DNA from: a virus | Length of the DNA stretch: 32,449 nt | Direction: 5' to 3' (one strand) | Virus record (IMG/VR): IMGVR_UViG_3300044695_001839 | Location: 1 to 32,449 of that record | The notes under the pieces: model-generated | What the model was told of the DNA's origin: nothing | The model's input: only the letters and a program-made list of their open reading frames with translations | Database searches by the model: none | Shown here: piece by piece, positions 2,349 through 32,449 of the stretch | How positions within the stretch are numbered: the stretch's first letter is position 1 | How the letters are laid out: each line of letters opens with the position of its first letter | Program-made: the position numbers and the translations under genes

Positions 2349-2513
2349 ATGAAACTCAAAACTATTCAATCACTCGCGCTAGCCGCTCTCGGCACGCTGA
2401 TCGTTATCGGCACGCTAACCCGCGTATTTGATAGCGCCGAAACGATTATGTGGACGGCAATGTGGCTCGCATGCGCCGCCGCGCACGTCACGACGCGCGA
2501 CAGCGACATTTAA
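2349..2513 (+). CDS. Small two-helix membrane protein, 54 aa
   Basis: The ATG at 2349 follows the ribosome-binding site AAGGGG at 2337-2342. The 54-residue product has two hydrophobic stretches, about residues 8-24 (LALAALGTLIVIGTL) and residues 33-46 (IMWTAMWLACAAAH), separated by a short polar turn and followed by a charged tail, so it is probably an inner-membrane hairpin. It is the second consecutive small membrane gene in the cassette. I do not recognise the family. It could influence the envelope or proton-motive force, or carry a superinfection-exclusion role; no motif distinguishes these. Confidence 0.55.
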   Translation: MKLKTIQSLALAALGTLIVIGTLTRVFDSAETIMWTAMWLACAAAHVTTRDSDI

Positions 2514-2535
2514 TAACTTGATAAGGGAACCGACC

Positions 2536-3288
2536 ATGCAAAATCCATTCAAAGCACAATTAAAACGTGAAGGCCTGGAATATCGCCGCGTTTTGGGCGA
2601 ATCCAGCGCCAAAACAATCAAAGGTGAAAAAATCGGCTACTTGACGGCCATATGTTACTTGGTACCGGATGAAAAGCTTTGTCCGTTTGCGATTATGGCC
2701 GGCTGTTTTGACGGCTGTCTAAAATCGGCCGGCCGCGGCGCGTTTAATGCCGTGCAAGCGGCACGCGCCGCCAAAACCGCGTTTTTCCGCGAGAATCAGC
2801 GCGCGTTTATGCTATCAATGGCCGCCGATGTATGGTCGCACGCACGCCGTGCGGAAAAATTAGGATTAATCCCGCTTGTGCGGCCGAATGGCACAAGTGA
2901 TATCCCGTTTGAGAATATTCTCATTGACGGCAAAACGATATTCCAGCTGTTCGCTGACGTACAGTTTTATGACTATACGAAACACCCTAGCCGAAACCTG
3001 ACGGGCAAAACGGCCGGTAATTATGATTTGACGTATTCATTCAGCGCTATCACGCCGAAACCGATATCAATCAAAGGCCTGATTAACCCGGCCAATAAAC
3101 GCACGGCCGTAGTATTCCAAAAGCAGGCCGATATTCCGGCCGAATTTCGCGGATGGCCTGTCGTTGACGGCGACGACACTGACGTACGCCATATTGAGCC
3201 GGCCAACGTGGTAGTGGCCTTATATGCCAAAGGCAAAGCAAAACGCGATACCGGCGGATTCGTTCAAATTAAAGGTCGTGACTACTAA
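2536..3288 (+). CDS. Phage gp88-like / DUF7227-like protein
   Basis: A 250-residue soluble protein, the largest of the early cassette. I start it at the ATG at 2536 behind AAGGGA; the frame is open further upstream, but that part overlaps the previous gene. It matches my memory of a widespread phage family annotated gene product 88 or DUF7227: an N-terminal KTIKGEKIGYLTAICYL segment, a cysteine cluster CPFAIMAGCFDGCL (about residues 50-63), SAGRG, a helical middle and the LVRPNGTSDIPFENI signature near residue 120. The three closely spaced cysteines could bind metal or Fe-S, which is inference. Biochemical function is unknown. It overlaps the next gene by one base (TAATG). Confidence 0.7.
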   Translation: MQNPFKAQLKREGLEYRRVLGESSAKTIKGEKIGYLTAICYLVPDEKLCPFAIMAGCFDGCLKSAGRGAFNAVQAARAAKTAFFRENQRAFMLSMAADVWSHARRAEKLGLIPLVRPNGTSDIPFENILIDGKTIFQLFADVQFYDYTKHPSRNLTGKTAGNYDLTYSFSAITPKPISIKGLINPANKRTAVVFQKQADIPAEFRGWPVVDGDDTDVRHIEPANVVVALYAKGKAKRDTGGFVQIKGRDY

Positions 3289-16702: not shown

Positions 16703-17701
16703 TTAAAGTTCGATTGCGGCATTCCCACCGGTACCAGTTGCGGGGGTAGAACCACCAGCGCCTAACTGAAATAAATCAACACTGGTATTGGCAACGGTTC
16801 CGTTACTTCCGGAGCCTAAAGTGATTGTCGGCGTAGCTCTTTTACTGACTTTAAAAAAATAGGTGGTTCTTGCGGTTGACCCTCCTGATGAGTCTGGCCC
16901 AGAGTAAGACGATAGCAATTCAAAATACCTTTGGCACAACGCCAACTCCGTACCATACGCCCTGTAGTCAAAGCTGGTCGCCTGCGTGCCCTTCTCTAGC
17001 TGCACGCCGGTGACGGCGAAAGTAGCGCCAGATGTCGATATAATTTTAGATGTCCCACTAGCCGCACGAAAATCGGATGCTGCCCAAGCCCCAGCCGTCC
17101 CTTGAAATGTTGAGCCTGTTCCAAGGTCAATTGTTAACACCAAACCGACGCCATTAGTGGTCAACCATGTTCCTGTCGTATCGCCGGGGATTGTTATTGT
17201 TTCAAACTCCCAAGTATTTGCAGCGTTAATTGTGTAGGTGAATGGGTAAGAACGGTCTAAAGCGTTGTTTTGAATTGCGCCACCAAATGTTCCTGTTACG
17301 CTTGAACGAACCCAAAAAGAAAGTGTGACTGTTGTGGCATTAGCTGTGCCCCAACCAAAGTCTGCCATGTTCAGCCCCTCAATACGCTGGGCGACATAGT
17401 TATTATCAGACGCGCCGGGGGATGCGCCGGTACCTACAGTTATCAGTAAGCTGTTTTTAAAATTAGCCGGGACAGTTGTGGATTGAATAGCTGTTGTTCC
17501 ACTACCTGTTGCAGCGCGAGCAAACCATCTATCAAGGTTGTATACATTAGACGAAGTTAACGTCACACTCGCCCCAGCATTGCGCTGATCGATCACCATC
17601 GCACCATTGATGATGCGGTTCTTGAAGTTGTAATAGCTGTTGTACTGCTTGCTGGTGTCTGGGAACGTGATCCCAGCGGTGCCATCCAAAATCATTGTCA
17701 T
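16703..17701 (-). CDS. Tail fibre / receptor-binding protein
   Basis: A 332-residue fibre protein. I start it at the ATG at 17699-17701 (MTMILDGTAG) behind GAGG; upstream codons belong to the endonuclease gene. The N-terminal part has DGTAGITFPDTSKQ and then FKNRIINGAMVIDQRNAG, a motif shared by many phage fibre/collar proteins. A carbohydrate-binding-like beta sandwich follows (NYVAQRIEGLNMADF, VTLSFWVRSS) and VQLEKGTQATSFDYRAYGTELALCQRYFE, a conserved end of such lectin-like domains. It would bind the host surface. It overlaps the homing endonuclease gene by 4 bp. Confidence 0.82.
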   Translation of the reverse strand: MTMILDGTAGITFPDTSKQYNSYYNFKNRIINGAMVIDQRNAGASVTLTSSNVYNLDRWFARAATGSGTTAIQSTTVPANFKNSLLITVGTGASPGASDNNYVAQRIEGLNMADFGWGTANATTVTLSFWVRSSVTGTFGGAIQNNALDRSYPFTYTINAANTWEFETITIPGDTTGTWLTTNGVGLVLTIDLGTGSTFQGTAGAWAASDFRAASGTSKIISTSGATFAVTGVQLEKGTQATSFDYRAYGTELALCQRYFELLSSYSGPDSSGGSTARTTYFFKVSKRATPTITLGSGSNGTVANTSVDLFQLGAGGSTPATGTGGNAAIEL

Positions 17702-18384
17702 TGTGCAACCTCTTTGTGTAAACAATTATTCATGTGCCAGCGTTTCATTGCGCCGATACCACCAACTTTATCGCAGTGAGGGCAGACTATCGTTGCCATT
17801 TTTCTGCCACGCCTAACAGCCGACATTTTTTGCTTAGTTTCTTCTGACGCTTTCTTACCAAGTTTTATCCGCCGCATCCGCTCAAGTGCTTCTGGCGTAT
17901 GTTTTTTACCTTTGGCGCCGCTCGGATTACCTTTGTGCGCTTCCGACATATGCTTTCGGTATTCAGGATTGCCCCAAAGCAGCTTAACTTTTTCGCTAAT
18001 CTTTTCTTTAGTATTAGGCGGCAAAGGTATACCTTTATTCCATGCCGACGCTACGCGAACGTATTTTTTGCCAAGCGAAGACGGAGGCTTACCACCACCT
18101 TTAACCAAATTCCACCCGATACGATCTTCGGGGCGCAACTTTTGTTCTACCTCTAAACAATACTCTTCAGACGCCAGCACTACTTTTTCTTTAACTAAAT
18201 TATCCCACCCATATTTAGCAATTGCACGCGTCAAATGTATATTCTGTCGCAGCGTTTTATGCTCAAACAATCGGCGGTCAAACCGTTTTGTAACGCCAAC
18301 GTACCCTTGGCAACGAATATCATCGTGGTCTGGACGCCTGATCCAGTAGACCACGTTGACGGCGCTGTCCGTGGGCATCGTCAT
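17698..18384 (-). CDS. GIY-YIG homing endonuclease with NUMOD3 repeats
   Basis: A 228-residue free-standing homing endonuclease placed between fibre genes. Residues about 12-95 form the GIY-YIG domain: VYWIRRP, GYVGVTKR with the following FDRRLFEHK, AIAKYGWDNLV, and WNLVKGG. Residues about 100-190 carry NUMOD3-type repeats (SAWNKGIPLP, KEKISEKVKLLW, HMSEAHKGNP, LERMRRIKLGKK, TKQKMSAVRRGRK), which contact DNA. The C-terminus is a possible zinc finger (CPHCDKVGG...HMNNC). It starts 7 bp after the upstream fibre gene and ends in a 4-bp ATGA overlap with the next, so it is translated with the late genes. Probably a mobile gene. Confidence 0.92.
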   Translation of the reverse strand: MTMPTDSAVNVVYWIRRPDHDDIRCQGYVGVTKRFDRRLFEHKTLRQNIHLTRAIAKYGWDNLVKEKVVLASEEYCLEVEQKLRPEDRIGWNLVKGGGKPPSSLGKKYVRVASAWNKGIPLPPNTKEKISEKVKLLWGNPEYRKHMSEAHKGNPSGAKGKKHTPEALERMRRIKLGKKASEETKQKMSAVRRGRKMATIVCPHCDKVGGIGAMKRWHMNNCLHKEVAQ

Positions 18385-18390
18385 GGCTAT

Positions 18391-18999
18391 TTACTCGTAA
18401 AGAATGTTGATGGAGCCTGCATCGAATGTGTCGGTGCCGTTGGTCGTGGTGACGCGGACGCGGTCTAGGGTTGCGGACAACGATTTTGATCCGGTGGTCA
18501 GTAACGTATAGGCTGACCCAGCCGCGCCAAGTATCCCCATTGCAGTCCATGTATTTGTGGACGAGTTAAGCAACGAAAATATAACTTGCCCACTAACTTC
18601 TAAGGGCGCGCTACCAACGCCAACTAAATCAAATCCAGATGAAGATGTGCCGCCGTTATTTAACGCTCCATTATATGAAAATATCGACACGTATCCGCTA
18701 GTTTCCGCGCCGCCAGAATCACCAAGTTGAAAACGTAGGTTGGCCGATCCGTTAAGACTAACGCCATTTAACATCAGCGTAATACGCCGCACCCACGACG
18801 GGATACTGGTAAAGTCAAGCGCTGTGCCCGACGTGGACGCAATCGCGGTGCCGGAGGTGAGTGGATACAGCACACCGCCACTGGCCGTGACCGTGCCCGC
18901 GAACGTGGTATTTAGCCCTGTGCTGATCGTGATCGCATCCGAGCCACCGATCTGGACGGCACCCGAGCCGTCCGTGTTACCTTTCAACCCGATTGGCAT
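18391..18999 (-). CDS. Tail fibre protein
   Basis: A 202-residue, Gly/Ser/Thr-rich protein with few charges, typical of fibre shafts. It begins MPIGLKGNTDGSGAVQIGGSDAITIST, a short repeat-like module shared with phage fibre genes, and continues with a beta-rich C-terminal domain (WVRRITLMLNGVSLNGSANLRFQLGD, ATLDRVRVTTTNGTDTFDAGSINILY in parts) that looks like a compact host-binding or trimerisation domain. The ATG shares a base with the upstream stop (TAATG). Function by family resemblance only. Confidence 0.75.
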   Translation of the reverse strand: MPIGLKGNTDGSGAVQIGGSDAITISTGLNTTFAGTVTASGGVLYPLTSGTAIASTSGTALDFTSIPSWVRRITLMLNGVSLNGSANLRFQLGDSGGAETSGYVSIFSYNGALNNGGTSSSGFDLVGVGSAPLEVSGQVIFSLLNSSTNTWTAMGILGAAGSAYTLLTTGSKSLSATLDRVRVTTTNGTDTFDAGSINILYE

Positions 19000-19817
19000 T
19001 ATGCTGCTCCTTCTAACGCGGCGACTTTCGCCTTCAGTTCTTCAATCATTGCTTGTTGCTCTTGGATGCACTTCATAAGAGCGTATTGCAAGTCAGTTTG
19101 GTAGATCGACAGCAATTCTGAGCCGTCATCTGCTTTTTCGTTTTCAAACCCATCTGTGCAAACAAGTTCAGGTGCTATGGCCTGTACATCTTGAGCAACT
19201 ACACCCAATGTAATTGGCGATGTATCGTCGTCTTTTTTGTACCTGAAGTTTTTTACCGGAATAGCGCAAATTTTATTCAGGTAATTGCCCGCTAATGAAA
19301 TATCTTTTTTGATACGCTCATCCGACAAATTTTGGTTATTCGCAGAATAATTTGCTAGCCCGCCATCAACCCTAAAGTAAGCTTGCGTTCTTTGTGTTGA
19401 TCCGCTATCAGAATAAAAAAAGCCAATACCAGAAGCGGCACTAGATGATACTCTGTAAAAACCATGACAAGCACCAGATGATTTTGCTTGGATGGAGTTT
19501 AAAGCGCTACCAAGAACGTCACTCGTCGTCCCCACCAGCAGATTACCGCTGGCGTCAAAACGTCCACTCTCAACGCCACCTTCTGCAAACGCAATCGTAT
19601 CCGCAGCGGGGGAGAAGATACCTGTGTTGGTGTCGTTTGAGAACGTAATTGATGGTGCGGCAGCAGACCCCAGCGTGACAGCAACCTGCTGCCCTGTACC
19701 AATCGTCACTGCGGTCGCGCCGCTGCCTGTGCCCGTCTTTAGCTCCAGAATGCCCGTATTGTCGCAAGACAGCGCTAGGCCGTTCGTTGCATTACCGGCG
19801 GTGATAGTGCTTGCCAT
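18999..19817 (-). CDS. Tail fibre with S74-type intramolecular chaperone
   Basis: A 272-residue fibre. The N-terminal two-thirds is beta-rich (DNTGILELKTGTGSGA, SNDTNTGIFSPAADTIAF, GRFDASGNLLVG). The C-terminal 110 residues form a peptidase S74 / endosialidase-type chaperone: NLSDERIKKDI near residue 163, with the serine at the expected autocleavage site (about 165), FRYKKDD, LGVVAQDVQAIAPELV and a terminal coiled coil (EQQAMIEELKAKVAALEG). In this family the chaperone trimerises the fibre and then cuts itself off. AAGGAG precedes the ATG. Confidence 0.9.
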   Translation of the reverse strand: MASTITAGNATNGLALSCDNTGILELKTGTGSGATAVTIGTGQQVAVTLGSAAAPSITFSNDTNTGIFSPAADTIAFAEGGVESGRFDASGNLLVGTTSDVLGSALNSIQAKSSGACHGFYRVSSSAASGIGFFYSDSGSTQRTQAYFRVDGGLANYSANNQNLSDERIKKDISLAGNYLNKICAIPVKNFRYKKDDDTSPITLGVVAQDVQAIAPELVCTDGFENEKADDGSELLSIYQTDLQYALMKCIQEQQAMIEELKAKVAALEGAA

Positions 19818-20720: not shown

Positions 20721-23201
20721 TCACCTACGATTAAGGTTGTTTCGGTCTGCCGGCGCTTGAGACGCGGCGCGCGATACAAACGGCGCGGCGCGCCGCAGCG
20801 CCTCGTCATTTACTTCTTGCCCAATCTTACGAACGGTTGCTTTCTCTATAGACTGCGCCGCCAAAGCTGGGCTAGTTAGTTCGCGAGCAATTTCTAGCGC
20901 GAGTTTATCATCCATTTTTAACGCCAAACGTTTGACAACCGCATTAAATATGGTAAGCGGTACGCTAAGTAAACTAGGCGCAGGCAAACCCCCTTCTTTA
21001 GCTGTTTTAGTAGCAATAGCAGTTCCCTGATCTCCTGCGCCGCCCAACTGGGCTAGCCGAACGTATTCCGCTTCGCGAGCCAAATCATCCCGCACAGCGT
21101 TAACCGCGCGCAGTTGTTCTGGGGATAGATTTTTAGTTAGTTCAGCAATGCGTTTTTCCACCAGCATAGCGTTGGAGCCTGGTGGGAGTGGTGGCCGCAG
21201 CTTATTGCCCGTCTTATCAATTAACTCTTGAATGCGTGACAAACGAGCGGCGTCCGCACCAATAGCGTCAAAGCCTTTGCGCAGGCCCATACCGGCGTCG
21301 TCTAAAAGCGCTATTGGCCGCGCGTAATCTTTCATAAACGCAGCGTGTTTAGCCATGTTAACGCGGCCTGTTGCAGCGTCTACGACTTTTTGACGGTAAA
21401 GATCTTCGATGCCTGCTTTGGTTACTTTAAGCGCGTCGGGGTTTTTGCCAAACATCGTAATAAACTGTTCGGCTTCGCGCTCGCCTTTAGGCTGAAAATA
21501 CTTGCTTACCACGTCGTCGGCTATAATTTTTGGCTCGTTCAACGAAGTCTGCTTAAACAGATTAGCGTTCACGCCGGTTTTAAAACGCGGTACGTACTCG
21601 GTACGGTAGGTCTGCACCGCATTGGCGTACAGCGATTTTGCCTCGTCGGTGAGATTACTGCTCTTGCCGATCGCGTCGTCAATAGACTCATGCAGCTTGT
21701 ACAGATTGCGCAGAGTCATGTCGGAAGACGGCACCAGCGAAGTTTTAGCCGCCTGTATGTCTGCATTGATAGCTTTTCTGATGTCGTCAAGCTGCTGCAA
21801 CGTGGCTTCGGCGGGCGCGGTAGATTCCGACGCTGGCCTAATTATCTTGGACGAAACCTTACCTTTGCCTAACGCTGCTTCAGGCTCACCTTTAGGTTTA
21901 AGCGCCAACAGTTTACGGACAGTATTAGGCGCCGTTTCTGGCGCAAAGTCCGACAACTTGCGCTCCAGTATGTTTTCGGCGGTCTTTACTACGTTAGACA
22001 CGTCTATCTTGGCGTTACCCGCAGCTTTATACGCCGCGTTATACGCTGGCTCAATAACGCTGGTCTTAAACAATTTTTGTTCGGCTTTTGCCGCAGTCAA
22101 CAAGGCTTCGCCGGTTTCTCGCTGGCTGACATTAGTTAACGCGCTATCAATCTTGTCTAATACTTTTCTAAACGCGCCTTCTCGCAAAGCTTTAATTCGT
22201 TCTTCTTGCGCTATGCGGGCGGCATTAGTTTGCGCGGCATTTTCAGCGTATGCAGTGGCTACGCCGGGCAGTTTAGACAGCCTGTCTTGCATAGCAGAAA
22301 ACTTAGTGCTGCCTGCTGGTGCGGCTACTTCGCCTGCGGTGGGTGCGCTGCCAGGAACTCTTGATGTGACGTCCGCCCGCAGTAAATTAATAATGTCACG
22401 GCCTTTACCTTCTACTGCTTCAAGGTAATTGGTGCCTTTTAAGTCGGCTAGTTTACGACCGTAATCAAGAACTTTTCCCGCGACAGGGGCGACAACTGTG
22501 GGTAACAGCGCGCCAATTGCACCACCTGCGGCTGCGTCTTCAGGGTTTATTGCCGCAGCAGACGCAGCGCCTGTAGCGCCGCCGCCAACAAGTTTAACGC
22601 CAGTTGATGTCAGCCCAGGCGCTAAATTAGTTTTAAAACCGCCAGACTCTAGAGAGGTGGTTATTGGGGTTAAATAGCGCGCCAACGAAGGCGCCATTTG
22701 CGCCGCTTTTTTAAGTGGGGCAGCTAATACGCCACCTACAGGAGCGGTGCCAAACGCGCTGCCGATAAAGCGACCTACATCACCACCACCAAACTCGCCA
22801 TATTGCTGCTCATACGCCGCTTTTTGGCGGTCAATTTCTGCTTGAATGGCTTTAGATGCGTTGTCGTTACCCGCTACTTTATCTACACCCTTTGAGAGCA
22901 ATAGTGTAGCGGTGTCCGTAATGTCCTGAAGTCCTCGCCCAAAGCCCGCAAAAGGCGCCGCTACTGCGCGGCCATAATATGACGCGGCGCTTTCTTGACG
23001 AGGCTTGGGAATTTCATTTTTAACGTCAACAGTAGGCTCCCCACCATCACGCGGGTAGGTGTACGTTATTTCTGGCGACGACCCTTCTTGCTCTTGCGCG
23101 CGCACTTGTTTGTACGCAGCAGCAACCTTTTCAAAGTCGGGCGTACCTTTTTTGTCTGCGTTTTTGACAATCCACGCCGCGTATTCTTCTGCTGTAGCCA
23201 T
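20721..23201 (-). CDS. Large internal virion / DNA ejection protein
   Basis: An 826-residue protein. The N-terminus EEYAAWIVKNADKKGTPDFEKVAAAYKQ matches a repeat-like motif found at the start of many podovirus internal virion proteins. A Gly/Ala-rich, membrane-active-looking stretch (about residues 160-245, GGVLAAPLKKAAQ, GGGATGAASAAAI) is followed by long helical regions. It is the largest of three consecutive genes in the position of the P22 ejection proteins gp7, gp20 and gp16, and longer than gp16 (609 aa). It would be ejected with DNA to cross the envelope. No lytic-transglycosylase motif was seen. Confidence 0.75.
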   Translation of the reverse strand: MATAEEYAAWIVKNADKKGTPDFEKVAAAYKQVRAQEQEGSSPEITYTYPRDGGEPTVDVKNEIPKPRQESAASYYGRAVAAPFAGFGRGLQDITDTATLLLSKGVDKVAGNDNASKAIQAEIDRQKAAYEQQYGEFGGGDVGRFIGSAFGTAPVGGVLAAPLKKAAQMAPSLARYLTPITTSLESGGFKTNLAPGLTSTGVKLVGGGATGAASAAAINPEDAAAGGAIGALLPTVVAPVAGKVLDYGRKLADLKGTNYLEAVEGKGRDIINLLRADVTSRVPGSAPTAGEVAAPAGSTKFSAMQDRLSKLPGVATAYAENAAQTNAARIAQEERIKALREGAFRKVLDKIDSALTNVSQRETGEALLTAAKAEQKLFKTSVIEPAYNAAYKAAGNAKIDVSNVVKTAENILERKLSDFAPETAPNTVRKLLALKPKGEPEAALGKGKVSSKIIRPASESTAPAEATLQQLDDIRKAINADIQAAKTSLVPSSDMTLRNLYKLHESIDDAIGKSSNLTDEAKSLYANAVQTYRTEYVPRFKTGVNANLFKQTSLNEPKIIADDVVSKYFQPKGEREAEQFITMFGKNPDALKVTKAGIEDLYRQKVVDAATGRVNMAKHAAFMKDYARPIALLDDAGMGLRKGFDAIGADAARLSRIQELIDKTGNKLRPPLPPGSNAMLVEKRIAELTKNLSPEQLRAVNAVRDDLAREAEYVRLAQLGGAGDQGTAIATKTAKEGGLPAPSLLSVPLTIFNAVVKRLALKMDDKLALEIARELTSPALAAQSIEKATVRKIGQEVNDEALRRAAPFVSRAASQAPADRNNLNRR

Positions 23202-23206
23202 GTTTA

Positions 23207-25060
23207 TTACTTCCTTAAAACTGCATCAGCTTCTTCAAGTATGCCGCCGCCGCTGCTAGGTGCAGCAACATTAGCTCGCTTACGCGCTCTGTCCATGCCT
23301 ACTCTTAATATGTTTTGAACTTCACGCGCGGCGGCTATATATTCTCTTTCGCTTTGCGCTATAGACATACGGTTAATTGCGGCGGTGCCTTTTTCACCTT
23401 CAATGTTAGTGATGGCACCGCCGCCTTTAAGAATTTCAAACGCTTCCAAGAACGACGCGCCTTTAATTTGCTGATCTCTACGCGCAAAATCGGCGGCGTC
23501 CGTTCCATCTATAAACCGCGCGCCTGGCAACCAAGTAGCGCCAACCGCGTCACTAAACCCAGGGTGCGGTTTTGTTCCGGCGCTAATTACTTTACCTGTT
23601 TTTTTATCTATTTCTGGTTCTTTACCAATTAAACTATCAATTAAGCGTATGCTTTCTTCGCCTCGCTGAATAACGCCCGGCAGCATTGCTTTTGCCTTAA
23701 CTTGGTCTTTTGCAATTGCTTCACCCGTTGCGCGCGCAGAAGCCATTCTTTGCTGAAACGCAGGGTCTGCATCGCGCGCAGCACTTTGCTCTGCTATAGT
23801 AACGCGTTTAGTTTCAAGTCCTACCCGTTGAGCCTCAAGCTGAATACGGCGGTTTTCCTGTTTTATGCGAGTAGATTCATTTTTAAGCCGCTCTTTATCC
23901 GCAGGGGATATGCCCATGTCAAACGTGTCGACAACAGTAGTTTTGCCAGTGGCGGGATCTCTTTTAACCACCGCAATTTTATTTTGCAAATTAATTTCAG
24001 AATACACTGGACGCTGGTTCTCAAGATCTTTTCTAAACGCATCTTGAATTTCTTTAGCCATAGCCGTTAGCGCCAGACGCCGATCTTTATCGGTAGTTTT
24101 AGCCGCTAACGCGTATAGTTGTTGCGCTGTTGGGTCGAGGTAGTCAACACCTGTTTTTTTAGCCGTTGTAACGTCGGCGGGCAGCACTAGTTCTTCGCCC
24201 GGGGCTGGCGCTGCTGCTGGAGCTGGTGCAGGAGCTGCTGCTGGAGCTGGTGCAGAAGCTGGTGCAGGAGCTGGTGCTGGAGCTGCTGCTGGAGCTGCTG
24301 CTGGAGCTGCTGCTGCTGGTGCTGGAGCTGCTTGTTCTCCCTGTCGACTTCTAAGATAAGCCTCTTTAGTTGGTGGGGTACGCCCAGCAAGAATTTCGTT
24401 AAAACTAAAGTTGTCGTATTCTTCAGCATCGCGGGCGTCGGCGGCTTTTAAGATATTTTCCGCAGACACCCCAGACAAACGGGCTTTGTAGCCTTTTGAG
24501 TTACGTCTAAATTCAGCGCGGTCGCGCGCAATAGTATCCCCTAGCGGGCCAAAACGTGTTGTTAGCGGGCCAAGCACATCGTCATTAGACATCGCTAAAA
24601 GACGCGCTTCAACATCTTCTTCAGATTGAATATTGTACGCAGGGAATGCTTCGTTAAACTGTTTTAGTCGAAGATCCAAAGTGTCTATTTCTTCTTTTTT
24701 CTTTGCCTGCTCTAAGTCAAATTTGCTCTTGTCAATAGCAGCTTCGCGTTGCTGTTTTGTTGAAAGCGCTGTTTGCCGTTGCGCTTCCCCTGTGGCAATC
24801 TTTTCATAAAAACTAGGGGCAACCGTAGCAAGCTGTGAATAGAACGCGTCTGACCCGTAAGGTACTTGTTTATTGGCCATTAGTTGAGCAAGCGCGTTTT
24901 TTTCTTGTACTTGCTGCTGGTATTCCTGCATTTTCAACGCGTTCATCTGCTGTTGCTGCTGCGCGCTTTGCAATTGCGCAATAGCAGCCATTTGGTTTAC
25001 CGGCGATTCAATTTGAATCGGGCGAAACCCCATTGCAATAGATGGGTCGATCTGTGCCAT
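23207..25060 (-). CDS. Internal virion / DNA ejection protein with Pro-Ala linker
   Basis: A 617-residue, largely helical protein with Gln-rich N-terminal coiled coil (QLQSAQQQQQMNALKMQEY, QQQVQEKNALAQLM). A Pro-Ala repeat of about 43 residues (about 244-286, from DNA 24203-24331) separates it from a second helical half (RRIQLEAQRVGLETKRVTI; a conserved-looking RGEESIRLIDSLIG; GATWLPGARFIDGTDAADF). It is the middle of three ejection-type genes and comparable in position to P22 gp20. The rigid linker suggests an extended two-domain protein packed in the head. AAGGA precedes the ATG. Confidence 0.7.
   Translation of the reverse strand: MAQIDPSIAMGFRPIQIESPVNQMAAIAQLQSAQQQQQMNALKMQEYQQQVQEKNALAQLMANKQVPYGSDAFYSQLATVAPSFYEKIATGEAQRQTALSTKQQREAAIDKSKFDLEQAKKKEEIDTLDLRLKQFNEAFPAYNIQSEEDVEARLLAMSNDDVLGPLTTRFGPLGDTIARDRAEFRRNSKGYKARLSGVSAENILKAADARDAEEYDNFSFNEILAGRTPPTKEAYLRSRQGEQAAPAPAAAAPAAAPAAAPAPAPAPASAPAPAAAPAPAPAAAPAPGEELVLPADVTTAKKTGVDYLDPTAQQLYALAAKTTDKDRRLALTAMAKEIQDAFRKDLENQRPVYSEINLQNKIAVVKRDPATGKTTVVDTFDMGISPADKERLKNESTRIKQENRRIQLEAQRVGLETKRVTIAEQSAARDADPAFQQRMASARATGEAIAKDQVKAKAMLPGVIQRGEESIRLIDSLIGKEPEIDKKTGKVISAGTKPHPGFSDAVGATWLPGARFIDGTDAADFARRDQQIKGASFLEAFEILKGGGAITNIEGEKGTAAINRMSIAQSEREYIAAAREVQNILRVGMDRARKRANVAAPSSGGGILEEADAVLRK
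24203..24331. repeat. Low-complexity Pro-Ala coding repeat
   Basis: Imperfect tandem 6-bp units (GCTGGA, GCTGCT, GGTGCA on the plus strand) encode the alternating Pro-Ala linker of the overlapping ejection-protein gene. Such tracts are prone to slippage and length change between isolates. Confidence 0.85.
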
Positions 25061-25072
25061 GATTAGTCCTTA

Positions 25073-25855
25073 TCAACGCCAATACGCGCTGCTGTCGTTA
25101 TTTGGTGGTATTTGTGGACGGTAAAGATTCATGAGCTGTTGATTCTGGTAATAGTTCAACCCTTGACCCAATGAATTTGATATAGCATTAGCTGTGCCCA
25201 TGTACCCAGACGCGCGAGCGTTACCTGCATTAATAGCGCTAGCACCCAAAGCGCTACCCAAATTACCATAAGCGCCTGCCATGCCTGCACCTAAATTTCC
25301 TGCCGCGTTAGTCAGCGTATTAGTTGCGGTTTGCCCCACGCCACCCAAGCTCTGTAGCGGGTTAAGAATATTTGCCCGTTCAGTTTGATAGCGGTTAAAC
25401 GCGTTTTGATATTCTTGTGACGCCAAATCTTGGCCGAACTCCATAGCACCGCGCAGCTGGTTACCCGACAGCAAACCACCGCGTGCAGCAGCCGTGCGTT
25501 CCATCGCATCAAGGCCACGCTTTAACCTAAACCCGTACCCAGGATCAGCTTGGTACTGCGCCATCGTAAACGGCTGCAAGCCGTAGCCATAACCAGGCTC
25601 GCTGGTACGTCCGCTAATTCCAAGCAAATCGGCCAATCGATTTTGTGCAGCTAGGCCAGTCTCACGAAACGGTTCTTGCAGCGCAACCTGCCGGTTGAAC
25701 ATGCGCTCTTGCGCTTCAATACTCGCTTGTGTAGTTTCGCGCGACGCGGCTGCTGCTGTGTCGGCGGCTTGTTGCTGCGCTTTAGATGCTTTACTCGATG
25801 CCGCTGAACCAATAACGGCGGCGCCTATGGTTGCTCCAGCTACCCATCCTGACAT
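25073..25855 (-). CDS. Small DNA ejection protein (P22 gp7-like position)
   Basis: A 260-residue protein starting at the ATG at 25853-25855 (MSGWVAGATIGAAVIG) behind AGGGG; an upstream extension of seven codons is less likely. The N-terminus is a Gly/Ala hydrophobic segment, possibly membrane-active, followed by a helical Ala-rich region (KASKAQQQAADTAAAASRETTQ), then DPGYGFRLKRGLDAMERTAAARGGLLSGNQLRG, a signature common to podovirus ejection/tail-assembly proteins, and a Gly/Ala/Asn-rich C-terminus. It is similar in length to P22 gp7. It overlaps the SET gene by 16 bp. Confidence 0.75.
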   Translation of the reverse strand: MSGWVAGATIGAAVIGSAASSKASKAQQQAADTAAAASRETTQASIEAQERMFNRQVALQEPFRETGLAAQNRLADLLGISGRTSEPGYGYGLQPFTMAQYQADPGYGFRLKRGLDAMERTAAARGGLLSGNQLRGAMEFGQDLASQEYQNAFNRYQTERANILNPLQSLGGVGQTATNTLTNAAGNLGAGMAGAYGNLGSALGASAINAGNARASGYMGTANAISNSLGQGLNYYQNQQLMNLYRPQIPPNNDSSAYWR

Positions 25856-26721
25856 GATGTTTCCCCTGATAAACAAAGCCCAAAATTTACCTGCATAGAG
25901 GCTCTATAATCTACAAAAAGTTCCCCGCCAACAGGTATATCTTTTAAGGCTATGGCGTAAATATCGTCACCAAACTTGTACGGCGTCACATTCGCATCAT
26001 GCGAATGATTTATGAATCGCCCTGCCGGGGTACGCTTACCATCTAATCGACCAGGGCAAATAACTTCACCTGCAAAAAAGTACCGCGTAGCAAACATTCC
26101 AATACCATGCACGGGCGATTCTTTTAACTCCACACTATGCCCTTCAGGCATATCAATCAAATCACTTTCAATGGTCACTATAGCGTCCATTGTAGGTTGA
26201 TCTACTCCCAGCTGCTCTAAAAATAACTGATAATCCGCTTGCGCCAATTCAATTGCTAATCGTTTGCGCGTGTCGCCTAACCCACATTCCGGCACAACGT
26301 AAAGCCTATCTTCTAACGTCTCTATATCTTGGCAATCATCTGGGTTTTCATACACATCAACCCACACCACTTCATCTTCAAACACGCGCCCTGCGCGTTG
26401 CTCACCTGCTTTTGCATCAAACTCACATGGCGCTGTTAACACAACTACTTCCGTATCACGGTTCACCGCAATCGTGCCTTTTTCCAACCGCACGCGGTAA
26501 TCTGTTTTATGCGCGGCTCCCGTTAGTACAGTCCAAGGCGGCACGATAATTTTTCGTTCGTATACGCCTGGCAAAAATGCGTGTACTGTTACGATGTCTG
26601 CTTGCGGCATTTCAAGCAACGCGTCTTGCAACGCAACAACTTTTTGCCGCATCAATTCTGGCGTAACTACCGCCGTACTATCGGGATTAAATATCTCAAC
26701 CGCGTTCACACCACCACCCAT
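25840..26721 (-). CDS. SET-domain protein methyltransferase with cupin-like N-terminus
   Basis: A 293-residue protein. Residues about 205-275 form a SET domain: GIGMFATRYFFAGEVI, RFINHSHDANV with the NHS substrate/SAM-site motif, and IPVGGELFVDYR with the catalytic-region tyrosine. SET enzymes transfer methyl groups from SAM to lysine. Residues about 45-135 (FLPGVYERKIIVPPWTVLTGAAHK, LEKGTIAVN, VVVLTAPCEFDAKAGEQRAGRVFEDEVVWVDVY in parts) look like a cupin-type beta barrel. A GTG at 26707-26709, overlapping the upstream stop as GTGA, is an alternative start. Lying among virion genes, it may methylate a capsid, tail or host protein; the target is unknown. Confidence 0.85.
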   Translation of the reverse strand: MGGGVNAVEIFNPDSTAVVTPELMRQKVVALQDALLEMPQADIVTVHAFLPGVYERKIIVPPWTVLTGAAHKTDYRVRLEKGTIAVNRDTEVVVLTAPCEFDAKAGEQRAGRVFEDEVVWVDVYENPDDCQDIETLEDRLYVVPECGLGDTRKRLAIELAQADYQLFLEQLGVDQPTMDAIVTIESDLIDMPEGHSVELKESPVHGIGMFATRYFFAGEVICPGRLDGKRTPAGRFINHSHDANVTPYKFGDDIYAIALKDIPVGGELFVDYRASMQVNFGLCLSGETSCQDG

Positions 26722-28274
26722 CGAGAACCGTTAGACACTGTTACGGTAATGCCGTTTGACACCGATATAACGCCTGCCGACATACCCGACGATCCTGACG
26801 GGATAGTGTAACTGGTAGCTATTGTCAGGCTGTTAACAAAAATGCCGTTAGACGCTACGACATGCGAGGATGTTAATTCACCTGTGCTGGGTTTGTACAG
26901 CAGTTTTGCGTTGCCGGTATAGATGGTCGACATCGTGCCGGTGGTCGCAGCAGCAAACGTCGGGTACAGGTTCGTTGACGTTGTTGTGTCGTTAGAAATG
27001 TTGATGCTGGCACCACCCGTTGCCCACTTCATGCCGGTGGCTTGCGTAGAGTCTGCCGTCAAAACAAACGTGTCGCTGCCAATCGGCAGACGCACATTGT
27101 CCGTGCCGTCATACGCAATCAAGTCACCCTTGGTGGTGGCTGGCGACAAGGCGTCAAACGCAGCCAATTTAGTCGTCTGGCCTGTACCGCCATTAGCTAT
27201 GGCCACGGTGCCGGTGACGTTGCTGGCCGTGCCTGTGGTGTTTTGGTTTAGCGTTGGTACGTCAGCTGCCTGAATGGCCGCCATAACAACGTTGGTGCCG
27301 TTACCACGCAGATACTGGCCAGACGTGACCGCTCCAGCAAACGCATTCATGGCTGTCTGAGCCGTTGTCTGCCCCGACCCGCCGTTAGCGATTGGCAACG
27401 TGCCGGTCACTTGGGTAGCCAAATCAACGCCGGTTAGCGTGCCGCCTAGTGTCAGGCTGCCGCTGGACGTCACCGTGCCCGACAAGCTAATGCCGTTGAC
27501 CGTACCGGTGCCGGAAACGCTGGTAACTGTACCGGCGTACTGGTCGTTCGACGTAATGGTAAAGTTAGGGTAGGTACCAGAGATGCTGGTTGTGCCCGCC
27601 CCGGTCAACGCCACTATCTGGTCTGGTGCTGTATTGGTAATCGTAAAGCTGGGGTACGTGCCCGACGTGCTAATGCCTGTGCCGCTAGTCAATACTACCG
27701 TCTGGTCTGGCGCAGAATTACTGATGGTAATGGCCGTTGACCCGTTGTACGTCGTGCCCGCGCTGTACGAGATGCCCGTGCCAGCAGTCAAAGCGTTAGC
27801 TACGCTACCTGCTTGGCCGCTAATGTTGCCCGTTATTTTGCTGCCGGCTAGCGACGTAATCCATGTCGGGTCAGCATAGCTGCCAGACGTATAAACGCCG
27901 TCAGTGACGGTGTTAGCGTTGCCGGTAACGCTGATTGCCCAAGTGCCTGTTGCGTTGGTGCCGTCTGTTCTTGGTACATCCAAATTGACGCGGGCGTTTG
28001 TCGCATTGATAGCGCCTGTGCCGCCGTTACTGACATTTAGTGCCCCACCTAGTGTGATCGTGCCTGACGTGGTTACGGGGCCGCCAGAGGCCGTTAAACC
28101 CGTCGTGCCGCCCGAAACATTGACCGACGTGACCGTACCCCCACCGCCGCCTGATTCGGCCTTGTTGAGCAGGTTAAGGAAGAACCGGTACCAATCGCGC
28201 GCAACAAACCCCGATCGCTCGTCGATGATCTGCGATTGGATACGGGGTATTTGCGGTTCGTTATCGCTAGGCAT
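26706..28274 (-). CDS. Repeat-rich tail fibre / tail structural protein
   Basis: A 522-residue Gly/Thr/Ser-rich protein. The N-terminal 45 residues (IIDERSGFVARDWYRFFLNLLNKAE) are a helical virion-attachment segment seen in related phages. The remainder is beta-rich with internal repeats: three copies of a GTGIS/GTTSIS-GTYP-FTIT module with APDQ-V-LT spacers (about residues 180-235), and several copies of IANGGTGQTT-like units. It ends ISVSNGITVTVSNGSRWVVV, similar to the end of the fibre at 19827-20717. Probably a fibre or tail appendage. It overlaps the gp10-like gene upstream by 8 bp and the SET gene by 16 bp. Confidence 0.78.
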   Translation of the reverse strand: MPSDNEPQIPRIQSQIIDERSGFVARDWYRFFLNLLNKAESGGGGGTVTSVNVSGGTTGLTASGGPVTTSGTITLGGALNVSNGGTGAINATNARVNLDVPRTDGTNATGTWAISVTGNANTVTDGVYTSGSYADPTWITSLAGSKITGNISGQAGSVANALTAGTGISYSAGTTYNGSTAITISNSAPDQTVVLTSGTGISTSGTYPSFTITNTAPDQIVALTGAGTTSISGTYPNFTITSNDQYAGTVTSVSGTGTVNGISLSGTVTSSGSLTLGGTLTGVDLATQVTGTLPIANGGSGQTTAQTAMNAFAGAVTSGQYLRGNGTNVVMAAIQAADVPTLNQNTTGTASNVTGTVAIANGGTGQTTKLAAFDALSPATTKGDLIAYDGTDNVRLPIGSDTFVLTADSTQATGMKWATGGASINISNDTTTSTNLYPTFAAATTGTMSTIYTGNAKLLYKPSTGELTSSHVVASNGIFVNSLTIATSYTIPSGSSGMSAGVISVSNGITVTVSNGSRWVVV

Positions 28275-29700
28275 TGGTGCCCGACAAAACTAATTCGGCA
28301 CCCACAATCGATATTTTGACCGGGTCAGTGCCGGAGATTTCATAGACACGGTCACGCAGTTTCAACGTCATGCCCAGCCGGCGACGGATGGCACGGGTAC
28401 CGTAAGCCCCAATCTTGCCAGCCGACATCCAATGCTCGTTTGACCATGTGTGGCCGCCGTCATCCGACCAGCGCAACATAACTTGCGGGTTGCTGCCTTG
28501 GCCAGTGTTTAGCCCCACACCGGTCTGCATGTCGATTTGCAGCGAGTGCTGGGCAGTACGCTTTAGGTTGTTTTGGCCAGTTGGCAGCGCGCGCCACGAC
28601 CGCAGCCACTTCTGAGCAAAGTCGCCGTCAGAAAACTGGTCTAAGTCGTAAGCGTAGATGTTGCCGTTTTCAAAGTCACCGACCACCACTTCTTCGCTGT
28701 AGAACATCTGGCAGTTAGCCCGGTGGCGGATAAACTGCCCGTTAGCAAATCCTGCCCGTTCATGCCAGGCGCCGGTAGCTGCGTCGTACACCCAAGTGGC
28801 CTGCGCCGACGGGAAGGTCAGCACATAGAACGAATGGCCGTCCTGCTGGTAGGTAAACGCAATCGCATCCGATATGATTTCATAGCTCTGGATAGCATAC
28901 TCAACCGCATGGGTGGAGATGCGCTGCCCTGCGTAGCCATTGGCACGAAACACGATGCCGTGGCCACGGGCGTCTGCGCCCAGCCAAAACAGCGAGTTGT
29001 CCATCTTGGCCACTGAAAAAGTAGCCGCGCAGCCAAACTCGTTGACCGCACCTTGGATACGCGCTAGAGGAAAGCCTTCTAGCGCAGCGTCGTACCAAAC
29101 TTCCACCGACTGAGTGCCAAACAGCCACACCTCGCGGTGGTCAACAAACAGCGACACCAAATTGTCTGGCATACCTTCAGCGCTGGCAAACGACAGCGGG
29201 TCAATCTGGGTGCCGTCCAGCAACTCAGACGTCCAAAAACGGTCTGAGTTGGGCTCTTGGAAAATAAAATAGCCGTCCAAATACCCAACAGTCACCGCGC
29301 CGGGAAAGTCAATATCGGTGATCTGAGCTAGCGTTTCACTAGCGGCGTCGTAAATGTAGCTAATCGGGTTAGTGGCGATAAACAGCTGGGTGCCGTTGTC
29401 TACCATCGACACGGGGCCTGTGCCAGCGATTGGCCCGATGGGCTGCACGTTCCATGTAGAGTCCACGCGGTACAGCCGGTTGCCCGACACCGCGTAGCCG
29501 TAGTCACCGTATGACCACAAGCCCCGAATAGGGCCGGTGCCAACGGTGGCAAGTTTACGCAAGCCTGGGGCACGGTTTAGAAACCCGCCGGTCTTGCCTT
29601 CTGGCGTAGGTAGTGGTTCGGGATACAGGTTAACCATGCGGCTGTCCGCAGCGTTAATACTGCGGGCAACATACGCTTGGCCAAGAATTGGCGTCTGCAT
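28267..29700 (-). CDS. Head completion / packaged DNA stabilisation protein, P22 gp10-like
   Basis: A 477-residue protein, nearly the length of P22 gp10 (472). The N-terminus (ARSINAADSRMVNLYPEPL, then GFLNRAPGLRKLATVG, IRGLW) is the conserved opening of this family. Multiple Trp/Gly-containing blades follow (GYAVSGNRLYRV, YFIFQEPNSDRFWTS, LWLGADARGHGIVFR-like), consistent with a beta-propeller plug in the tail hub. It follows the gp4-like gene by 3 bp, the same order as in P22. It holds packaged DNA in and forms part of the tail machine. Confidence 0.87.
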   Translation of the reverse strand: MQTPILGQAYVARSINAADSRMVNLYPEPLPTPEGKTGGFLNRAPGLRKLATVGTGPIRGLWSYGDYGYAVSGNRLYRVDSTWNVQPIGPIAGTGPVSMVDNGTQLFIATNPISYIYDAASETLAQITDIDFPGAVTVGYLDGYFIFQEPNSDRFWTSELLDGTQIDPLSFASAEGMPDNLVSLFVDHREVWLFGTQSVEVWYDAALEGFPLARIQGAVNEFGCAATFSVAKMDNSLFWLGADARGHGIVFRANGYAGQRISTHAVEYAIQSYEIISDAIAFTYQQDGHSFYVLTFPSAQATWVYDAATGAWHERAGFANGQFIRHRANCQMFYSEEVVVGDFENGNIYAYDLDQFSDGDFAQKWLRSWRALPTGQNNLKRTAQHSLQIDMQTGVGLNTGQGSNPQVMLRWSDDGGHTWSNEHWMSAGKIGAYGTRAIRRRLGMTLKLRDRVYEISGTDPVKISIVGAELVLSGTNA

Positions 29701-29703
29701 AGT

Positions 29704-30414
29704 TTAGTAATTACCAGCGTAAATGTTAAACCGCTGACGAGTGGCAATCAGCGAGTACGGCATGGACATCACGTCATCAGGATTGTTGATGCGCTTCAGG
29801 TTGCGCTTAGACGTCATGGCGATACGCTGCACTTGCGGCATAGGCTCGACACCAAACTCGTTGGCAATTTCCATCGCCAAGTTGTATTTGAACGCGCGCA
29901 AATAGCCCGGCGGGAACGACAGCACGGTGCCAAGTGTTGCAGGCTTAGTCAGCTCCTGCACCGACACAAAGTGCCACTCCAGAACGCGTGTTGGTTGGGG
30001 ATAGATCGTCATGGTGATGTCTGGGAACGTATTGTTCACAAACATGACCTGCGGGTAGGTGCTGGTGACTGTCTTGACCGCAATGCCGTTGTACTGCTGT
30101 TGATTAATCAACTTGATGCCGTAGGACACGTTGGTGCTAGCGTCACGGAAGTACGTTGCGTCGTCAATCAGAACGGGGCGGTTGCCCACGAAGTTACCTG
30201 TCGGCCCCAGAGTGCGAGTAATCTGGCCAGGCGGCCAGTTAAACACCTGATCTTCGGTGCAAAACACGGCTAGGCGCTCAGTATTCCACGAATCAATCAT
30301 CTGATTCATGGCGGATAGCGCATCTTGTGCTGCCTGCGGGGAGGGCTCTTCACCTTCAGCCAGCTGGCCTATGAGCCGAAGCGACGCTTTAATCTGGTCG
30401 AAGGCGGTTGCCAT
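29704..30414 (-). CDS. Head-tail adaptor, P22 gp4-like
   Basis: A 236-residue protein. It begins with a helical domain (ASLRLIGQLAEGEEPSPQAAQDALSAMNQMIDSWNTERL in parts) characteristic of P22 gp4-type head-completion adaptors, followed by VFNWPPGQITRTLGP and a beta-rich middle, then LSFPPGYLRAFKYNLAMEIANEFG, another family hallmark. It is longer than P22 gp4 (166 aa). In P22, gp4 binds the portal ring and recruits gp10, the next gene here. GGAG lies before the ATG. Confidence 0.87.
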   Translation of the reverse strand: MATAFDQIKASLRLIGQLAEGEEPSPQAAQDALSAMNQMIDSWNTERLAVFCTEDQVFNWPPGQITRTLGPTGNFVGNRPVLIDDATYFRDASTNVSYGIKLINQQQYNGIAVKTVTSTYPQVMFVNNTFPDITMTIYPQPTRVLEWHFVSVQELTKPATLGTVLSFPPGYLRAFKYNLAMEIANEFGVEPMPQVQRIAMTSKRNLKRINNPDDVMSMPYSLIATRQRFNIYAGNY

Positions 30415-31555: not shown

Positions 31556-32449
31556 TTAACCCCACATGCGGCAAGCCATTTGCGGACGGATCGTGCTATA
31601 GCCGTACAGCACGTCAATACGGCAAGGCATACGGTCGTTGTTGATGTCGTACTGACGAACAACACGCAACGAGATGCCGTTGTGTACTTGACGCGAAGCC
31701 ATGTCGACGCCTTGTGGCAGCAACAGGTCGGCGGTAGCAAAAGTGATCGCATCCTTATGGTAGATAAGGTTCTGAGCGTACTGGCTGCTGGCTGCACCCA
31801 AGAAGGTCACAGCTTTGCCAGTAGCAGGCAGAGCGGTCATAGTGGCCAGAGCGTGGCTTGCCGAGTACATCGGTGCCACAGTCACAGTCCAAGTACCAGA
31901 CACGGCAGTGGCGTCAGCCAGAGCAACGAACTGGAACAGCGAACCAGTGGACTCACGGGTCTGTGGGTTGACCGCAAAGCTGTCAGCGATAGTGAACACG
32001 TCGCCAGCCTTGATGGTGGTTGTCACAGAACCCTGCTCCAGCAGGATCGTGGACGCGCCTTCAGCAGTTACGCCTGGGGTTTTAACCGCAGTGGATGCAG
32101 AAGCGTCGCGCGAACCAGTGGTGTGCTGCTTGATTGACTGGGACATGTTGACTTCTTCAAAGCCCAGAACACCCATACCCATCATACCGTTCTTGAACTG
32201 GCTAGAGATGGTGGTGGTTGGGTTGAACAGACCTTTCATGCCTTCAACCAGACCAGCGTTAGCAGCTGGGTTAACAGTTGCGTAGCGTGGCGACATCACA
32301 GCTGCGTTTTCGTTCAGCTTCTGCTGGGCTTGCAGCAGAACGAGCGAAGTCGAAGGTACGGTGCCAGGCGTGCCGACCGAGTTACCGATGGTCTTGTACG
32401 CGTTAGCAACGTCAGCGTCGATCGACGATGCGAGCTGAGAAATACGAGG
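31556..32449 (-). CDS. Major capsid protein, P22 coat (gp5)-like (partial, N-terminus beyond right edge)
   Basis: 297 codons are open from the right window edge to a stop at 31556. The visible part matches the C-terminal two-thirds of P22-type coat proteins: ISQLASSIDADVANAYKTIGNSVGTPG at the edge, LLQAQQKLNENAAVMSPRYATVNPAANAGLVEG, GLFNPTTTISSQFKNGMMG, GFEEVNMSQSIKQHTTG, and the conserved end SLRVVRQYDINNDRMPCRIDVLYGYSTIRPQMACRMWG, each in part. P22 coat is 430 aa, so roughly 130 residues are missing. It builds the icosahedral head. Confidence 0.92.
   Translation of the reverse strand, partial: PRISQLASSIDADVANAYKTIGNSVGTPGTVPSTSLVLLQAQQKLNENAAVMSPRYATVNPAANAGLVEGMKGLFNPTTTISSQFKNGMMGMGVLGFEEVNMSQSIKQHTTGSRDASASTAVKTPGVTAEGASTILLEQGSVTTTIKAGDVFTIADSFAVNPQTRESTGSLFQFVALADATAVSGTWTVTVAPMYSASHALATMTALPATGKAVTFLGAASSQYAQNLIYHKDAITFATADLLLPQGVDMASRQVHNGISLRVVRQYDINNDRMPCRIDVLYGYSTIRPQMACRMWG

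Follow-up and report, generated by a model that had tools for sequence, protein, structure and literature searches.

The closest described relatives of the SET domain analysed here are PBCV-1 vSET and enzymes of the MLL1/EZH2 type (PF00856), with which it has in common the fold, the SAM-binding GxG and NHS motifs and the catalytic tyrosine of the E-L-x-x-D-Y motif. In canonical histone-type enzymes (MLL/EZH2 class) the SET-I segment helps to bind the substrate peptide; a SET-I of canonical length is absent from the phage domain, which has ~34 fewer residues than MLL1 from motif I to NHS. Further differences from vSET, MLL1 and EZH2 are a family-specific R225 and RT pair (230-231), a small V, I or L at the switch residue, and the fusion to a phage cupin with no chromatin context. 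The phage family has been catalogued as PHROG 34170 without an assigned function. The protein encoded in the window (the whole stretch analysed, a 32,449-base virus record) matches this family over its whole length (E = 5e-33) and is a diverged member that differs in nothing essential; gp30 of Rhodoferax phage P26218 matches it as well (E = 3e-168). The cupin part is shared with PHROG 12032/24280 and PHA00672 (VvAW1 gp4, VPMS1, BPP-1 Bbp23; E ~1e-20), which lack SET, and in VvAW1 the cupin gene has the same operon position as the fusion gene of the window. By gene position, the cupin-SET gene corresponds to that of P22 gp14 (head morphogenesis; order 10-26-14-7-20-16), although homology of the cupin to gp14 was rejected (hhalign probability 0.5%, different PHROG). 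The internal virion protein gp13 of T7 (phrog_308), of which mature virions probably contain little or none, is also encoded immediately before the ejection proteins; it has neither SET nor cupin, is unrelated in sequence and is an analogue in position only, and phrog_308 was matched neither by the window protein nor elsewhere in the window record.

An earlier note on this DNA, which comes from a short-tailed phage, knew of no characterised function for such a fusion in phages of this type, and we likewise found none in open-access papers, nor any description of a phage SET-cupin fusion or of virion-linked SET enzymes in phages. Term searches of the genome papers of phages P26218, VvAW1, SInP-X14 and zth2 returned no discussion of the fusion, the window protein had no match among defence-system and NCBIfam families, and BFVD names single family members 'SET domain containing protein'. 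What is already known is the family as PHROG 34170 without function, while the size, partner and setting of the SET domain are new.

The cupin-SET gene and its two domains

The fusion gene lies on the minus strand at 25840..26721, exactly where the earlier note had placed it, and encodes 293 aa from an ATG at 26721 or alternatively a GTG at 26709; the plus strand is riddled with stops, and homologues from three other records (L015, L023, L030) start near codon 5, i.e., at the position of the alternative GTG. The motifs read previously as GIGMFA (here HGIGMFA), RFINHS and GGELFVDY are all present in the translation. The ORF coordinates also bear out the overlap with both neighbours: the 3' end of the upstream fibre-like gene (26706-28274) reaches 16 nt into the cupin-SET ORF, an overlap that shrinks to 4 nt (GTGA) if translation begins at the GTG, and the ATG of the downstream ejection gene (25855) lies 16 nt inside it, with a Shine-Dalgarno-like AGGGGAA stretch for that gene within the SET tail. 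From the overlaps and the common strand, co-transcription with the tail and ejection genes appears probable.

The N-terminal barrel proposed in the earlier note was recognised as a cupin (RmlC-like jelly-roll) domain at residues ~40-142 (26296..26604, minus strand) by PHROG 12032/24280 profiles, AlphaFold2 and Foldseek. Pfam had no match to the N-terminal half, while in PHROGs it matched phrog_12032 (1e-20) and phrog_24280 (1e-15), families annotated 'short tail fiber' and 'tail fiber adhesin'. The structural model exceeds a pLDDT of 90 over most of residues 40-142, the top Foldseek matches of this region are cupins, cupins are also among the best VIA matches, and the comparison with cupin 4e2g gave a Z of 10.5. 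Only some of the histidines of the metal-binding cupin motif are visible in the alignments, and Pfam Cupin_2 matches 2/55 members. Both the profile match and the position ahead of a gp7-like gene place the domain with the podophage 'short tail fiber' cupins of PHROG 12032; no experimental basis for this annotation and no virion proteomics were found in open-access papers.

The C-terminal part is a helix pair followed by a mini-SET (residues ~162-276, 25894..26238, minus strand; Pfam, AlphaFold2, alignments) that holds the residues G206, G208, R225, R230, T231, N238, H239, E267 and Y272. The Pfam SET model matched the fusion protein with 39.2 bits (cut-off 22.4, E = 1e-9) and likewise each of the 55 diverse fusions in an alignment, and in a PDB profile search with the fusion SET methyltransferases came out on top (MLL1 best with E = 2e-11, vSET 7e-7). 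The single-chain AlphaFold2 model, built from the alignment of 55 diverse fusions, has a mean pLDDT of 89.9, with cupin and SET mostly > 90 and SET at ~97; its pTM is 0.62, so the relative placement of the two domains may not be fixed. Residues 183-284 of the model align with MLL1/EZH2 at Z 10-11 (~80 residues, ~2-3 Å, ~30% identity) and with vSET at Z 9.7. Since motif I and NHS are separated by 12 profile positions in the phage family and by 46 residues in MLL1, the SET-I insert is missing, and by sequence the domain is a mini-SET led by a conserved helix pair. The position of V270, which precedes D-Y and which we take to be the Phe/Tyr switch of known SET enzymes, holds V, I or L in 96% of homologues. 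By sequence and modelled fold this is a SET protein; methyl transfer to lysine itself is a prediction.

Locus, distribution and gain and loss of the SET segment

The earlier note had also placed the fusion inside a virion operon, and its neighbours, all on the minus strand, agree with this. They comprise the C-terminal part of a P22-type major coat protein (31556..32299, recognised by family matches and cut by the window/ORF start), a P22 gp4-like head-tail adaptor (29704..30414, phrog_12985/637), a head-closure Hc3/P22 gp10-like protein (28267..29700, family profile matches) and, overlapping the fusion, a fibre-like protein (26706..28274) assigned by its P22 gene 26 position, with no family match in Pfam or PHROGs. 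On the other side lie a gp7-like DNA-ejection protein whose gene starts inside the SET tail (25073..25855, phrog_598, E = 3e-33), a gp20-like ejection protein (23207..25060, phrog_2534, 'released from the phage upon host infection') and an 826-aa protein (20721..23201) that, judging from position only, would take the place of P22 gene 16. The gene order is thus that of P22 (5-4-10-26-14-7-20-16), with cupin-SET at the gene 14 position, and a gp7-like ejection gene follows immediately downstream in 301/319 related loci, whether SET is present or absent. Elsewhere in the window, the minus strand carries a NUMOD3-containing protein within the tail-fibre gene cluster (17698-18384), probably a GIY-YIG homing endonuclease, its GIY-YIG part being judged by eye, and a fibre protein that ends in a Peptidase_S74 intramolecular chaperone (18999-19817), while a GP88 family protein (Pfam Gene product 88) is encoded on the plus strand (2428-3288).

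A first scan of IMG/VR returned full fusions at 62-98% identity together with relatives that match only residues ~1-157. With a SET profile, 499 IMG/VR stretches were matched, of which 498 encode relatives, so the fusion or its relatives occur in at least 498 stretches. Further scans, including the genomes of 84,980 prokaryote species, added distant relatives, and full fusions at 25-33% identity were found in Rhodoferax phage P26218, Pseudoalteromonas phage PH1, phage zth2-2 and two distinct spring-water podophages. Loss of the SAM or tyrosine residues in homologues had been named as evidence against an active enzyme, but N238, H239 and Y272 are kept in 162/164 distinct homologues, and the two that lack Y272 (L303, L318) are truncated at or near contig ends. 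Over the 164 SET sequences, G206, G208, R230, T231, G234, R235, N238, H239, E267 and Y272 are 99-100% conserved; some of the scans selected for an RTxxGR-type pattern, which by itself accounts for part of the conservation of that motif, whereas the other SET residues are less affected and are also kept in the SETs found via the cupin scan. Among close relatives, dN/dS is ~0.08 for SET and ~0.05 for the cupin. The earlier description of a cupin fusion whose SET looks catalytically intact holds, with residues conserved and the domain, on these sequence comparisons, under strong purifying selection.

The segment that encodes SET behaves as a presence/absence cassette. At 25868..26254 (minus strand), the window has 387 bp where a near-identical relative (L044) has 18 bp; DNA identity between the two is 93-95% from the upstream region to the end of the cupin and 85% beyond it. 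An independent pair of records (L037/L062, 89% identity over 3.4 kb) has practically identical cassette boundaries. No SET was found elsewhere in any of 40 cupin-only records, many of them 35-40 kb long, which rules out that these genomes supply it from another place, and the 335 cupin ORFs sampled have only two architectures, cupin alone or cupin-SET, with no other large C-terminal partner. In a cupin tree (117 sequences, 119 columns, gain and loss not distinguishable), the SET label changes ~13-14 times, at least 7-8 of these changes being forced by strongly supported branches. In some pairs synonymous divergence is lower in SET than in the cupin, a hint of cassette exchange by recombination that we do not claim because dS is near saturation.

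Cupin and SET are also found apart. In L180 and L181, which have identical DNA and come from two samples, they are adjacent separate genes, and the split pair in L181 still precedes a gp7-like gene. In the genome of Paraburkholderia ferrariae (L255) a cupin gene lies just upstream of a separate SET gene, and helix pair and SET together form a gene of their own in L255-L257, whose SETs gave an hhalign E of 9e-43. On bacterial contigs, this helix-plus-SET module is located near a tyrosine integrase in L255 and L256 (Comamonadaceae) and near primase/helicase genes in L256 and L257 (Rhodocyclales). No cupin was detected in L256 and L257 and no P22 coat protein in any of the three genomes; by gene content these loci look like integrated elements or phage satellites. 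A 99-aa stand-alone mini-SET that shares the RTPLGG..NHS motif is encoded by Prochlorococcus phage P-SSM7 (PSSM7_204; L088 2983-3282), where this gene of a T4-like cyanophage, annotated as a hypothetical protein, is close to nrdAB.

Absence of the cassette from ~93% identical relatives, together with the lack of a SET elsewhere in the 40 records, makes the cupin the conserved component; the same data make SET a repeatedly gained or lost and dispensable add-on to it, functional as judged from its sequence. As the SET-minus sisters keep the cupin and its neighbours, a generally required role of SET in assembly is very unlikely on these genome comparisons, and an accessory or conditional role appears to fit better.

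Possible roles of the fusion

Our leading explanation, held tentatively and with somewhat less than an even chance, sees in the fusion an accessory, SAM-dependent enzyme that is attached to the tail and ejection machinery, methylates lysines of virion proteins and confers a conditional advantage. It builds on the two folds, the conserved catalytic residues, purifying selection, the linkage to the locus and the gain and loss of the cassette, from which we infer that the enzyme is an active methyltransferase, associates with the virion, has its substrates there and is of advantage. The cupin would be the conserved docking component, its gene standing first in the row of ejection-protein genes in the P22 gene-14 position, and would bring the mini-SET, an optional catalytic module, to its site of action. 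Made late, alongside the virion proteins, cupin-SET would most likely methylate lysines on them during particle assembly, and such methylation might be of advantage under some conditions, e.g., where ejection is met by host proteases or other defences. A docked accessory methyltransferase is favoured because the cupin is conserved while the SET, intact, is optional and apparently unneeded for assembly, and as hundreds of phages have the fusion and close sisters lack SET, a real, optional, particle-tied protein-modifying enzyme looks likely.

The missing SET-I insert speaks against this explanation. The earlier note had suggested the ejection protein made next as a substrate, which now appears a weak candidate: there are 3 lysines in the window's gp7-like protein, which is lysine-poor, and among 89 relatives none of the alignment columns with lysine tracked the presence of SET, so that a SET-linked lysine signature was discarded. 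The P22 record notes that the N-terminal 20 residues of gp7 are removed by a host protease; an effect of methylation on processing of this type is speculation.

If the enzyme were docked in or on the virion by the cupin, it could also enter the cell with the ejection proteins and methylate a host protein early, for takeover or counter-defence. We consider this possible though rather unlikely. The immediate linkage to gp7/gp20-like ejection genes, the accessory gain and loss typical of host-interaction genes and the stand-alone relatives without a detected cupin in bacterial elements are in its favour, and where virion operons differ in little else, such gain and loss is explained by host-directed effectors no less well than by modification of the virion. 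Packaging or ejection is nevertheless an assumption that requires the fold to pass a narrow tail, and the sequence suggests no host target; virion proteins are slightly favoured over host proteins as substrate, given that the docking domain is part of the virion locus. In a specific form of the idea, which seems unlikely, the virion would carry the methyltransferase and release it along with the ejection proteins, so that a host target is methylated as infection begins; the cupin would then be a conserved adaptor in the virion, and SET an effector cassette that can be swapped on it.

A late intracellular modifier that is not incorporated, acting either on abundant host proteins or as an assembly catalyst that leaves, has a distinctly low probability. 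The position of T7 gene 13 (the phrog_308 match) directly before the ejection genes agrees with it, and so do the phrog_308/GNAT-like gene directly upstream of cupin-SET in L167 and the GNAT gene that adjoins the cupin gene of Bordetella phage BPP-1. The former (2956-3504 of L167) is a relative of the T7 gp13 family with a weak GNAT match that adjoins the cupin-SET gene, and the latter is bbp24 (L339 4480-4944), a GNAT-like gene directly beside the cupin. Such genes are nonetheless rare (among related records, phrog_308 was matched in 1/50, PF00583 in 2/50), and the idea that a GNAT acetyltransferase generally partners the cupin in place of SET was dismissed; the neighbourhoods suggest that protein-modifying enzymes can recur beside it, but rarely.

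The SET might alternatively be a non-catalytic beta-clip, a structural or ligand-binding add-on such as a receptor-contact module in which only the fold is used. SET-I, normally part of the lysine/peptide site, is indeed missing, and the protein that hosts the SET carries a tail-fibre annotation; conservation of GxG, NH and the catalytic tyrosine, however, stays at 99-100% down to ~25% overall identity, which a purely structural role leaves unexplained, and we regard this reading as improbable. An assembly or annotation artefact or a decaying gene is refuted by ~500 metagenome stretches, isolate phages and strong purifying selection, the lone truncated cases being at or near contig ends.

If active, cupin-SET would place a widespread protein-lysine methyltransferase within the virion operons of phages, a modification of which open-access papers yielded no phage example, and would represent a very small SET without SET-I, informative on substrate recognition by such enzymes. 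The SET-plus and SET-minus sister phages offer a natural controlled comparison for finding its target.

Of the phage records MW202557 (L087) and MW202655, the former misses the cupin-SET ORF in its deposited annotation; an antisense ORF that overlaps it is called 'contryphan-vn-tryptophan', an evident annotation error.
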